A stretch of DNA of 64,000 bases from an uncultured Pirellulaceae bacterium (GTDB taxonomy: Bacteria; Planctomycetota; Planctomycetia; Pirellulales; Pirellulaceae). Shown here piece after piece: positions 30,465 through 38,378 of the stretch (position 1 is its first letter; the number at the start of each line of letters is the position of its first letter). The notes beneath the pieces were generated by a model. The model had not been told where the DNA came from and did no database searches. It saw only the letters and a program-made list of their open reading frames with translations. The position numbers were made by a program, and so were the translations under genes. The DNA lies in assembly GCA_905480545.1 (NCBI GenBank), contig CAJQQR010000085.1, forward strand, positions 1-64,000, read 5' to 3'.

Positions 30465-31595
30465 GTGCTCGCAAAAATTACGGCAACATTTTTCGTTTGT
30501 ATCGTCCTTTCGACTGGAGCGATCGCGCAAGAAGAGGCAAAAAAAGAGGAGAAGCCGGTTAAAGGATACGGTTTCAAGATCGAAAAGAAAATTGAGTGCA
30601 CCGACGTTAAATCACAAGACAATACCGGAACCTGCTGGTGCTTCGCTGGAGCGTCTTTTTTGGAATCCGAACTGATCCGGCGCGGTAAAGGTAAACACAA
30701 TATTTCCGAGATGTTCCTTGTGAAAAACGTCTACAAGGACAAGGCAATGAATTATGTGTTGCGGAGTGGCAAAGCGAATTTCGGTCAAGGAGCTTTGGCG
30801 CATGATTTTATCAACGCGGTTGATCGGCATGGACTGATTCCAGAAGAATTCTTCGATGGATTGGACGAAGGCGTTAAGAAGCATGACCATGGTGAATTGG
30901 AAGTCATCTTAAAAGGCGTGCTGGATGCATTGATCAAACAAAAAAAGCTTTCGAAGAAATGGAGAGTCGCTTACGACAGGATTTTGGATGTCTATATTGG
31001 CGAATCGCCAGCGGAATTCGAATATCAAATGCAAAAATACACCCCGATGACATTGAAAGAAAAAGTTGATTTTCGCGGTGAAGATTATTGCAGCATGACC
31101 TCGTACACTCACCATCCATTTTACAAAAAATTTGTGTTGGAAATTCCAGACAATAATTCGAACGGCTCTTTTTACAATGTGCCGATCGACGATCTGGTGA
31201 ACGTGATCGACAACGCCATCGAAAATGGTTACTCCGTCGCTTGGGACGGTGATGTGAGCGAAGCAGGGTTTTCCTCTCGCTTCGGGATGGCGATTTTAGC
31301 TGAAGATCCGAATCGGGGAGATAAATTTTCAAAACCGGGAAAAGAGAAGGTTGTAACCCAAGAGATGCGCCAGGATTCTTTCTACAGCTACTCGACAACC
31401 GACGATCATTTGATGCATCTAACTGGGATTTCCAAAGACAAAAATGGAAACAAATATTACGTTATAAAAAATTCATGGGGGGAAGTCGGGCCCTACAAAG
31501 GTTACCTTCACATGTCCGAAGCCTACTTGCGCCTGAAGACGGTTGCGATCCTGGTTCACAAGGACGGAGTACCCGCAAAACTTCGCATGAAGTAA
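30465..31595 (+). CDS. Secreted C1-type cysteine peptidase (bleomycin hydrolase-like)
   Basis: 376 aa from a GTG. A signal peptide (ATFFVCIVLSTGAIAQ) precedes the catalytic core. The Cys motif QDNTGTCWCFAGASFLESEL (Cys near residue 56), the His region DDHLMHLTGI and the Asn motif YYVIKNSWGE are the papain-family triad. The extended insertion between Cys and His blocks resembles C1B peptidases (PepC/bleomycin hydrolase). Those are normally cytosolic; the signal peptide is unusual and points to an exported version. A clear terminator follows. Confidence 0.87.
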   Translation: MLAKITATFFVCIVLSTGAIAQEEAKKEEKPVKGYGFKIEKKIECTDVKSQDNTGTCWCFAGASFLESELIRRGKGKHNISEMFLVKNVYKDKAMNYVLRSGKANFGQGALAHDFINAVDRHGLIPEEFFDGLDEGVKKHDHGELEVILKGVLDALIKQKKLSKKWRVAYDRILDVYIGESPAEFEYQMQKYTPMTLKEKVDFRGEDYCSMTSYTHHPFYKKFVLEIPDNNSNGSFYNVPIDDLVNVIDNAIENGYSVAWDGDVSEAGFSSRFGMAILAEDPNRGDKFSKPGKEKVVTQEMRQDSFYSYSTTDDHLMHLTGISKDKNGNKYYVIKNSWGEVGPYKGYLHMSEAYLRLKTVAILVHKDGVPAKLRMK

Positions 31596-34275: not shown

Positions 34276-35397
34276 ATGTTTCGTGTTGTGAAATTCAATT
34301 TGGCTATTGTTTGTTTGGCGATTTTCGGAATCGCGATTGCCGGATGTGGAGATTCTTCAAAAACGAACAAGACCGCCCAAAAGGACGACGGAAAGTCCCC
34401 TGGCATCATCATGCTACGCTACACGACCGGTAGCGAATCTACCGAACAACGCGAGCGGGGCTTCATCGACACGATCAAGAAGAATTACCCGGACATCAAC
34501 ATTCTGTCGGATGATCAATATGCCTCGACGACGTTGGAGACATCGATGACCAAGGCGACCGATCTGTTGACGAAATTTGGCGATCGAGTCACAGGGATTT
34601 TCGCAGTTTGCGAGCCCAACGCGCACGGAACGTTGAATGCATTGGAAGAGGCACGACTAACGGATAAGGTGAAGTTTGTTGGTTTCGATCCAAATGAAAT
34701 CATGGTCGACGCCGTTTCAAAAAATAAAATGCAAGGAATTGTGCTTCAAGATCCGGTTCAGATGGGATATCTTTCGGTGAAAACAATGGTTGCACATCTT
34801 GAAGGGGAAAAGGTTGAGAAACGGATTTCGACTGGTGAGTATGTTGCAACGCCAGAAAACTTCGAAGATGAAAAAATGGGTGTGTTGCTGTCGCCGCCCA
34901 AAACTGACGAATCTCCAGAAGCGGAGAACGCCAAGTACAGAATTGCCGTTGTTCCAAAGGGAACAACGCATGAGTTTTGGAAATCCGTTCATTTTGGTGC
35001 ATCGAAAGCGGCGAAAGAGCTTGGGAATGTTGAGTTGACCTATCGTGGTCCCAGTGACGAAGGCAACACACAGTCTCAAATGGAGTTGGTGGAAAATCTA
35101 GTGGCTTCAAAAGTGGATGGAATTTGCCTGGCACCGAATGATTCAACGGCATTGGTAGAGTCGGTTGAGTTGTCGAATAAGAAGGGCGTTCCCGTTGTCA
35201 TCTTTGACAGTGGATTGAATACCGATCCCAAAAATTATGTCAGCTACGTTGCGACCGACAATTACAACGGAGGTGTATTGGCGGCTCATTGTTTGGCCAA
35301 AGCGTTGGGGTTTGATAAGCCGGGTGCGACTGAGTCCAAAGGAAAAAAGTCGGTCACCAATGAGTCAGATTCTGAAAAAAAAGAAATGACCAAGTAG
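34276..35397 (+). CDS. Sugar ABC importer binding lipoprotein with circularly permuted domain order
   Basis: 373 aa from the ATG at 34276 (AGGAG upstream). It is a lipoprotein: signal helix then lipobox IAGC with Cys24. Residues about 43-212 match what is normally the C-terminal part of RbsB-type binding proteins (IIMLRYTTGSESTEQRERGF, GIFAVCEPNAHGTLNALEEA, VKFVGFDPNE, GIVLQDPVQMGYLSVKTM, VATPENF). Residues about 221-343 match the normal N-terminal part (YRIAVVPKGTTHEFWKSVHF, DGICLAPNDSTALVE, GVPVVIFDSG, YVATDNYNGGVLAAH). The two parts are joined by short Lys/Glu-rich linkers, in one open frame. The ligand is likely a pentose or related sugar. It is the first gene of a three-gene importer operon. 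Confidence 0.85.
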   Translation: MFRVVKFNLAIVCLAIFGIAIAGCGDSSKTNKTAQKDDGKSPGIIMLRYTTGSESTEQRERGFIDTIKKNYPDINILSDDQYASTTLETSMTKATDLLTKFGDRVTGIFAVCEPNAHGTLNALEEARLTDKVKFVGFDPNEIMVDAVSKNKMQGIVLQDPVQMGYLSVKTMVAHLEGEKVEKRISTGEYVATPENFEDEKMGVLLSPPKTDESPEAENAKYRIAVVPKGTTHEFWKSVHFGASKAAKELGNVELTYRGPSDEGNTQSQMELVENLVASKVDGICLAPNDSTALVESVELSNKKGVPVVIFDSGLNTDPKNYVSYVATDNYNGGVLAAHCLAKALGFDKPGATESKGKKSVTNESDSEKKEMTK

Positions 35398-35442: not shown

Positions 35443-36963
35443 ATGAGTGGGCAATTGCCAACGTCTGATTCGAAAGAAACTGTCCTGAAAATGGCAGGTG
35501 TTAGCAAGAGTTTCGGGGCGACAGTTGCTCTCTCAAATGTTGCGATTGAAGTTCAATCAGGCAGCGTCCACGCATTGATTGGTGAAAACGGGGCAGGGAA
35601 GAGCACGCTGATGAAAATTCTCAGCGGTGCTATTCGTCCCGATGCTGGGGCAATGGAAGTTTCCAGAACGATTTATGATCCTCGGACTCCGTCGCAGGCA
35701 CGCGATCGTGGTGTTGCGATGATTTATCAAGAGCTGATGTTGGCGCCGCATCTCAATGCCGTCGACAATATCTGTTTGGGACGCGAGTTTCGACGCTTCG
35801 GCGTTTTGAACAAGTCAAAGCAAAAATCGCTCGTGGAGAAGGTGCTGCAACAGCTCGGATGCGAACATCTTGATTTGAACACTCCAGTCAGTGAATTTTC
35901 TGTTGGGGAACAGCAGTTGTTGGAGATTGCTCGCGCATTGGCCTACGATGCGAAGATCGTGATTTTTGACGAGCCGACGAGTTCTCTTACTCAGAAAGAT
36001 GCGGAAAAGTTGTTTTCGGTCATTGATGACCTTAAAGAACGAAATATCGCGGTGATCTACATCAGCCATTTCCTTGAAGAGATTCGTCGGGTGGCTGATC
36101 GTTATACCGTGCTGCGCGATGGAATGTTGGTCGATAGTGGCTCACTTGATGGAGTCACTGAAAAGGAAATTGTTCACATGATGGTTGGCCGAGACGTCGA
36201 TGAACTTTTTCCCAAAGTAGAGCATGAGATTGGCGGCACCGTTTTAGAATTGAATCACCTTTCGGGGGTCGACACGCCCCTAGACGTCAGTTTTCAGTTG
36301 CGAAAGGGTGAAGTTCTTGGTTTTTCCGGTTTGGTTGGCGCTGGAAGGACTGAATTGATGCGGGCGATCTATGGCTTGGATGTAATCCGCACTGGCGAGC
36401 TGAATCTTTCCGGGAAACATGTCGTTCGAACAAACCCGCGGAAAAGCATCTCTGGCGGCATTGCGATGGTGTCAGAGGATCGAAAGACCGAGGGGCTCGC
36501 TCAGGATCAGTCGATTGGTGAAAATATTACTTACAGCAAACTCTCGCATTATTCAAAAGCCGGTATTCTCAATCTTTCTCGGCGGCGTATCGCTGTAGCG
36601 AAGTGGATGAAAGAGGTTGAGATCAAAGCATCTTCGCAGGACGCGCCCGTCAGTTCACTTTCTGGCGGGAACCAACAGAAAGTTGCGCTCGCTCGGGTGT
36701 TGCATCAGAACGCCGATATCTACCTGCTGGACGAACCGACCCGAGGAATCGACGTTGGAACGAAATCAGAAGTTTATCGGATCATTGGTGAATTGGCGGC
36801 GGCTGGGAAGAGCGTCATCGTTGTCAGTTCTTATTTGCCAGAACTGATGGCAATTTGCGACCGAATTGCGGTGATGTCCCGAGGCAAAATCCGAGAGATC
36901 AAAAACGTAGCCGATTGGACCGAGCATGACATTATGATGCATGCAGTAACAACAGAAAACTAA
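35443..36963 (+). CDS. Sugar ABC importer ATPase (RbsA/MglA type)
   Basis: 506 aa with two fused ABC domains. First: Walker A GENGAGKST, signature SVGEQQLLEIARAL and Walker B IVIFDEPTSSLT. Second: a degenerate Walker A LVGAGRTELMRAIYGL as usual in this family, signature SGGNQQKVALARVL and Walker B IYLLDEPTRGIDVG. It powers import through the permease encoded next. It starts 45 bp after the binding protein stop and overlaps the permease start by one base (TAATG at 36963), so the three genes are one transcription unit. Confidence 0.94.
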   Translation: MSGQLPTSDSKETVLKMAGVSKSFGATVALSNVAIEVQSGSVHALIGENGAGKSTLMKILSGAIRPDAGAMEVSRTIYDPRTPSQARDRGVAMIYQELMLAPHLNAVDNICLGREFRRFGVLNKSKQKSLVEKVLQQLGCEHLDLNTPVSEFSVGEQQLLEIARALAYDAKIVIFDEPTSSLTQKDAEKLFSVIDDLKERNIAVIYISHFLEEIRRVADRYTVLRDGMLVDSGSLDGVTEKEIVHMMVGRDVDELFPKVEHEIGGTVLELNHLSGVDTPLDVSFQLRKGEVLGFSGLVGAGRTELMRAIYGLDVIRTGELNLSGKHVVRTNPRKSISGGIAMVSEDRKTEGLAQDQSIGENITYSKLSHYSKAGILNLSRRRIAVAKWMKEVEIKASSQDAPVSSLSGGNQQKVALARVLHQNADIYLLDEPTRGIDVGTKSEVYRIIGELAAAGKSVIVVSSYLPELMAICDRIAVMSRGKIREIKNVADWTEHDIMMHAVTTEN

Positions 36964-38378
36964 TGACAGAATCAGGATCAAAATTTGGATTTCGTGTTCC
37001 ATTATTTGTGGGGCCATTGGTCGCGCTTGTTCTTGTGATCGCGCTTTTTGCAGTGCTCGACTACTTCTATTCCAATGGTCAGTTCTTTACGAGTGACAAC
37101 CTTTCAAACATTTCGATTCAGACTACGGTTTACGCTCTTGCGGCGGTCGGACTGACGGTTGTGATCATTTCCGGAGGCATTGACCTATCATGCGGAACCG
37201 CGGTTACACTTTCGGCTACTGCGGTTGCCTGGTGCATTCTGCATGATGTTGGCAGTCGGATCAACGACGGATCCAACGTCCGCGAGGCAGCGGTAAACGT
37301 TGCGGTTCTAATCGAGGAAAAAGCTTCTGAAGAAGAAGTCGAATCCGCAAAAAAGAAACTGGCTGATTTGATTCAGCTGAAGATCTCGCTCTTGGAAGCG
37401 CAACTAGAGCCGGTTGCTAAGTCGATGGAGATGAATGACTGGATCGATTTGCCAAGCCGACAAATCGATGCGATGAGAGAGAGCAATCGAAGGATGTACG
37501 ATCGCTTTGATCGAACCGAAAAAAATTACAACCGACTATCTAGTAATTTGGACAAGCAAAAATCGCGTTTGGTGGATTTAGCAAACCCGGGTTTTTCCCT
37601 TACAGCTGATAATGCAAAGCAATACTGGGGCAGTAATCTTCCAAACCATCCCAGTACCGTCTACTTCTCGATCATTGCTGGAGTCATCACCGGGGTTTGT
37701 TGCGGTCTTGTGAACGGCGTTTTGATTGCGTTTCTAGGTATTGTTCCGTTTGTGGTGACGCTGGGGACGATGACCATCTTTCTGGGGATTGGGAATTTGG
37801 TTTCCGGAAACGTACCGATACGGACAATGCGCGGAGATCAGGTCCCGGACTGGCTTTATCAATCGCTCAGTCTAAATTCTGAATATATCTTTTTGGGTTT
37901 GCCGCCTGGCGTTTGGATGCTTTTTTTGTCCGCGATGCTCATGGCGTTAGTTCTTTGGGCGACCGTGTTTGGGCGGTATTCGTTTGCGTTGGGGTCGAAT
38001 GAATCGACAGCTCGATTGTGCGGCATCGATGTCGCTTGGCAGAAACTATTAATTTACGCGTTGAGCGGGGCGATGATTGGGCTGGCCGGCGTGTTTCAGT
38101 TTTCTCGCCTTACGGTTGGTGATCCGGAATCGGGCTTGGGACTTGAGCTAAAGGTCATCGCGGCGGTTGTTATTGGCGGTGGTAGCCTTCTTGGAGGAAG
38201 AGGCAGCATCATGGGGACTCTCTGTGGCGCAGCGATGCTAGCCGTGATTCTGAACGGCTGCACCCAGTTGGGATTGCCTGTATCGATTGAGAAGATCGTC
38301 GTCGGTTCAATAATCATATTCGCGGTCTACCTCGATCAACCACAGGTCAAACAATTCTTCCGATCGATGTGGAAGTAG
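36963..38378 (+). CDS. Sugar ABC importer permease (RbsC type) with a large inserted segment
   Basis: 471 aa; usual RbsC permeases have about 320-350. Family motifs are present: VIISGGIDLSCGTAVTLSA (residues about 63-81), VNGVLIAFLGIVPFVVTLGT and GTLCGAAMLAVILNG. Between residues about 95 and 230 lies a charged, helix-prone segment (IEEKASEEEVESAKKKLADL, LLEAQLEPVAK, RRMYDRFDRTEKNYNRL, LDKQKSR) that normal family members lack. It sits between two membrane helices and would form a loop or coiled coil outside the membrane core. It overlaps the ATPase gene by one base. Confidence 0.88.
   Translation: MTESGSKFGFRVPLFVGPLVALVLVIALFAVLDYFYSNGQFFTSDNLSNISIQTTVYALAAVGLTVVIISGGIDLSCGTAVTLSATAVAWCILHDVGSRINDGSNVREAAVNVAVLIEEKASEEEVESAKKKLADLIQLKISLLEAQLEPVAKSMEMNDWIDLPSRQIDAMRESNRRMYDRFDRTEKNYNRLSSNLDKQKSRLVDLANPGFSLTADNAKQYWGSNLPNHPSTVYFSIIAGVITGVCCGLVNGVLIAFLGIVPFVVTLGTMTIFLGIGNLVSGNVPIRTMRGDQVPDWLYQSLSLNSEYIFLGLPPGVWMLFLSAMLMALVLWATVFGRYSFALGSNESTARLCGIDVAWQKLLIYALSGAMIGLAGVFQFSRLTVGDPESGLGLELKVIAAVVIGGGSLLGGRGSIMGTLCGAAMLAVILNGCTQLGLPVSIEKIVVGSIIIFAVYLDQPQVKQFFRSMWK

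Follow-up and report, generated by a model that had tools for sequence, protein, structure and literature searches.

Sequence comparison confirmed that a gene in the window, as we call the whole 64,000-nucleotide stretch of Pirellulaceae DNA analysed here, encodes an RbsB-type sugar-binding protein that is genuinely circularly permuted; its order matches no known normal family. The permuted order is shared by relatives in other genomes, it lies within a conserved transporter operon, and the protein retains some of the ligand-site residues.

The halves of the binding protein are swapped

We designated the normal order of segments A-B-C, and the permuted orders B-C-A (CP1, the order of the window protein) and C-A-B (CP2). 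The gene is a single open frame with an ATG at 34276, a stop at 35397 and an AGGAG ribosome-binding site immediately 5' of it (Table 1). Pfam assigned the protein to Peripla_BP_4 (PF13407) with 198.9 bits (cutoff 35.1), in two stretches. Residues 38-179 match profile positions 118-258; in the profile search of the window genome, 34387-34812 corresponds to positions 118-258 and the downstream stretch 34942-35310 to positions 1-119. The whole length of the profile is covered and both halves were found, in an order other than the canonical N-half to C-half. An earlier note on this DNA had claimed that the halves are swapped in one frame after the lipobox, with the C-terminal half (residues 43-212) ahead of the N-terminal half, as in a circular permutation of an RbsB-type protein. 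The profile matches bear this out, segments B and C together spanning residues 43-212 and segment A residues 220-345. So does the alignment with RbsB that the note had suggested: a global alignment with the E. coli protein (MG1655 record) scored 213.5 with the rotated order and -22 with the encoded order, so that the former fits and the latter does not. In addition, both halves are ~50-64% identical to normal-order orthologues, which excludes a chance resemblance. A single-sequence AlphaFold prediction of the protein (pLDDT 39) was unusable as a model.

The note had also read the normal ends as joined internally (VLLSPPKT...NAKYRIAVV), and we found at this join a linker (34888-34932) that measures 12-14 residues in almost every CP1 protein, across families. 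Its placing of the new ends near the hinge, on the other hand, had to be corrected. The cut point aligns to RbsB ~122/125, where the C lobe passes from its first helix to the strand that follows. Taking the hinge crossings of RbsB to lie at ~103/104, 235/236 and 264/265, and assuming its lobe limits likewise, the new termini are within the C lobe and not at the hinge.

Table 1. Features of the permuted binding-protein gene and its operon in the window, and loci of further permuted proteins
Feature	Position or loci	Strand	Basis or context
Circularly permuted CUT2-type sugar-binding lipoprotein, 373 aa, CP1 order (C-half, then N-half)	34276..35397	+	profile and alignment
Signal peptide with lipobox IAG-C (Cys24)	34276..34347	+	sequence
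Segment B, residues 43-130: first part of C lobe; mid-protein in normal order	34402..34665	+	profile, alignments
Segment C, residues 131-212: remainder of normal C-terminal half	34666..34911	+	profile, alignments
Internal linker, old C terminus (LLSP) to old N terminus (KYRIAVV)	34888..34932	+	comparison of CP1 linkers
Segment A, residues 220-345: N lobe and first C-lobe helix; protein start in normal order	34933..35310	+	profile, alignments
C-terminal tail, charged, low-complexity, varies between relatives	35311..35394	+	CP1 alignment
RbsA-type double ABC ATPase, next gene of the operon	35443..36963	+	sequence, profile matches
RbsC-type permease (BPD_transp_2), overlaps the RbsA stop	36963..38378	+	sequence, profile matches
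CP2 loci	L067-L077, L079-L084, L086-L088, L091		family f21
CP3 loci	L107-L112, L172-L183		paralogous CUT2 family; see also PDB 5er3

Operon context and partly kept ligand-site residues suggest a sugar importer

As in its relatives, the gene of the window protein is accompanied by those for an RbsA-type double ATPase and an RbsC-type permease (35443-38378). Across the fetched neighbourhoods, where contig ends and thresholds let it show, the order binding protein-RbsA-RbsC is common to permuted and normal-order proteins, indicating that the permutation replaced the protein in place and left the operon otherwise unchanged. For the ligand site we compared the residues that form it in RbsB. F15, D89, R141, F214, D215 and Q235 of RbsB align with F234, D311, R59, F137, D138 and Q158 of the window protein, among which R59, D138, Q158 and D311 are invariant across the CP1 alignment. 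N13, N64, R90, F164 and N190 are changed, and F16 is replaced by W. None of the substrate-specific NCBIfam models reached its cutoff (the best gave 93.5 bits against 342), and the RbsB equivalog NF007936 scored 91.9 bits against a cutoff of 337. Judged by its sequence, the system is likely to import a monosaccharide or a polyol. We consider it very probable that the window protein serves a CUT2 (ribose-type) ABC importer as its substrate-binding component, anchored in the membrane, and works as a sugar receptor.

In the RbsC-type permease, a charged stretch of ~110 residues is inserted (at ~residues 95-225). Some of the other permeases in these operons apparently have it too, and its presence seems unrelated to the permutation. 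Upstream of the operon, the window encodes a secreted papain-like (C1) cysteine peptidase (30465-31595; PF03051/PF00112). The window genome also has 21 matches to PF07596, and 14 control genomes have none; taken with the gene content, this family indicates Planctomycetota.

The permuted order is shared across families

Our survey covered the phylum of the window. CP1 order was found in 18 genomes of five families, 11 in the window's own family (241 genomes searched) and 7 in the other families of its order. Normal-order orthologues occur in ~60 sampled relatives, where as a rule the same RbsA and RbsC genes follow; none of the CP1 genomes of the window's family has a second, normal-order copy at E <= 1e-30. 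Position by position, the last ten residues of the CP1 linkers are also alike across families (on average 2.5 of 10 identical against 1.2 when shuffled; 0 of 2,000 shuffles). By pattern, a lipobox motif precedes the first domain in 14 of 18 CP1, 20 of 21 CP2 and 58 of 64 normal-order proteins. A search of viral contigs returned no relatives, and a scan of genome contigs with the window protein alone gave one chance match, to a non-PBP open reading frame on a Lachnospiraceae contig.

Further permutations occur at other cut points

In family f21, which alone represented its order among the families returned, 27 of 45 genomes have a full-length orthologue in CP2 order. Here the cut precedes the VGFD strand, and the profile positions run 208-257, then 1-207. 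The CP2 proteins form one clade, and their linker is unlike that of CP1; a common origin of CP1 and CP2 was rejected (p-AU 0.020 and 0.010). The CP2 gene of genus g193 adjoins a gene resembling sodium:solute symporters and not RbsA/RbsC (L204:2494-3341 in G600; L205:299-1530 in G612), and in G600 the CP2 gene is split into two frames.

A paralogous CUT2 family holds a third arrangement, CP3, in which profile positions 152-257 are followed by ~6-155. The window genome itself encodes a normal-order relative of this family (L114), identical to the CP3 protein L109 at 126 of 300 positions after rotation. In three genomes (L206-L208; G009, G026 and G074), the same paralogue is cut at a CP2-like position (CP4). 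The CP4 clade (SH-aLRT 99) includes two further CP3-type proteins (L108, L209) and the normal-order L114 and L210, and it stands apart from the 5er3-type clade. Some CP3 and CP4 linkers within it are alike (KEGRPTVAF and KEGRDTVAF), a lead, not a test, that would fit alternative trimmings of one fused ancestor or a secondary shift of the ends. There are hence at least four permuted lineages with three cut points (profile ~120, ~152 and ~207), all of them in the C lobe. Support for the deep branches of the trees is weak, and these event counts are estimates from quick trees.

Origin of the permutation and alternative explanations

Circular permutations arise by a standard route, in which a gene is tandemly duplicated, the copies are fused in frame and both ends are trimmed, and this is the most likely origin of the CP1 order. 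The ancestral gene would have been duplicated in tandem and its copies fused in frame; trimming of both ends would have kept the signal peptide and the C half of the first copy together with the N half of the second, the signal peptide and lipobox staying at the front. The ancestral C and N termini would thereby have been fused via a linker of ~13 residues, and new termini opened at RbsB ~122/125. The predicted product is still a clamp of two lobes that keeps the sugar site; the chain would cross between the lobes four times and not three, and the lipid anchor would now be on the C lobe. No tandem or fused intermediates were seen in 55 fetched neighbourhoods, nor did the flanking DNA hold a convincing remnant of a duplicated copy; the duplication-fusion step is for this reason one that we infer.

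The window genome is a 300-contig assembly, in which a rearranged contig might have joined pieces of a normal gene, but the chance of such an artefact is negligible: 17 other genomes have the same order and a linker of the same length at 45-70% identity, including two single-contig genomes (G019 and G319), and the permuted halves are in frame with a signal peptide. The search of relatives for the identical order, which the earlier note had proposed, therefore ruled out misassembly, since the order recurs in independent genomes. A chimera, in which the C half and the N half came from two different binding-protein genes and merely mimic a permutation, gains some plausibility from the lobes being separable and each able to fold alone (PMC9815098), and the Treponema case, whose moved part is only 13% identical, has been discussed in these terms (PMC4990184). 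Here, however, both halves are ~60% identical to one orthologous family, and across relatives the identity of one lobe rises and falls with that of the other (correlation 0.84 within CP1 and 0.71 between CP1 and normal-order proteins), which indicates that both derive from one gene family and not from two unrelated genes; recombination between two copies of one gene would be the duplication route itself. We thus regard a chimera of unrelated genes as very improbable.

Whether CP1 arose once is less clear-cut. CP1 proteins appear in several places of trees whose backbone is weak, and a single CP1 clade was borderline rejected once RbsA was added to the binding protein (p-AU 0.036). The binding protein alone does not reject a single clade (p-AU 0.13), however, transfer or lineage sorting would account for the discordance, and the linkers resemble each other across families in length (12-14 residues) and in position-specific similarity. 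Repeated origin at one loop seems less likely than a single one; the shared linker argues for one CP1 event, probably followed by transfer or sorting. A different question is why the permutation persisted. It could have been selected because it shifts the lipid anchor, which the N lobe bears in the normal order, to the C lobe, altering tethering or presentation to the permease, a rationale proposed for the Treponema protein Tp0684 (PMC4990184); since every cut point found lies in the C lobe (profile ~120, ~152 and ~207), each permutation event would have moved the tether there. Yet normal-order orthologues of sister genera equally bear a lipobox (58 of 64 by motif) in the same operon, so tethering does not require permutation and is weakened as a sufficient reason, and the events are few. 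Selection for this purpose appears unlikely. Rather doubtful, too, is the broader proposal that planctomycete CUT2 binding proteins are unusually permutation-prone, with at least four lineages, three cuts and two paralogous families in which the anchored N terminus moved into the C lobe because the tether is advantageous there, the two forms of the paralogous family perhaps going back to one fused-duplicate ancestor.

Comparison with known permuted binding proteins

Permutation of this fold was already known from Tp0684; what appears to be new is its recurrence across a phylum beside normal-order orthologues. The earlier description of natural permutation in binding proteins concerned one structure of uncertain origin. 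Permuted and unpermuted orthologues at ~50-64% identity, in the same operon and in related genera, with several events and different cuts, provide matched natural pairs with which to ask if permutation brings an advantage or is neutral, by what steps fused intermediates are resolved and where loops accept new ends, the last being directly useful for biosensor design. Automatic annotation handles the permuted proteins as ordinary ones. Our literature search, which left preprints and most subscription papers outside, returned no description of planctomycete permuted binding proteins, nor of PDB 5er3 as a permutant.

With E. coli RbsB and other CUT2 or Type I (Cluster B) proteins (PF13407), the window protein shares the family, the RbsA/RbsC partners and some of the ligand-site residues; it differs in that its halves are in the opposite order, the old termini are fused, the new ones lie in the C lobe and it is a lipoprotein. 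The nearest precedent is Tp0684 (TpMglB-2) of Treponema pallidum, a naturally permuted Type I protein that binds glucose and changes conformation upon binding, and for which a 'Type Ic / Cluster Bc' class and the tethering hypothesis were proposed (PMC4990184). Type Ic proteins are known from spirochaetes and mostly Gram-positive bacteria (PMC4990184). Like the window protein, Tp0684 is a permuted Type I sugar-binding lipoprotein, in which the joined old ends add a fourth inter-lobe crossover. Unlike the window protein, cut at RbsB ~122/125, it is MglB-like and has its cut in the N lobe, and a mere 13% identity of the moved part to EcMglB left room for a different gene origin of that part (PMC4990184), whereas the halves of the window protein keep ~50-64% identity to normal-order orthologues. 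The window protein has the rotated order of fold elements and the joined old termini of Type Ic proteins (alignment scores of 213.5 and -22; conserved linker), with a cut point other than that of Tp0684.

PDB 5er3, the periplasmic sugar-binding protein of a sugar ABC transporter (Rhodopirellula baltica), is collinear with a CP3 paralogue over 330 residues (E 2.6e-162), and the normal-order structures 2h3h and 2qvc match in two swapped pieces; by its sequence, 5er3 seems to be a natural permutant whose structure was solved without remark on the permutation. It differs from the window protein in belonging to a paralogous family closest to 2h3h/2qvc and in being cut at profile ~152. In engineered constructs with permuted halves of the Thermotoga ribose-binding protein, man-made and of half size, the lobes tolerate permutation (PMC9815098). 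The examples of 5er3 and Tp0684 show that this fold can be stable in permuted form, and that of Tp0684 also that it can then bind sugar and change conformation in doing so.
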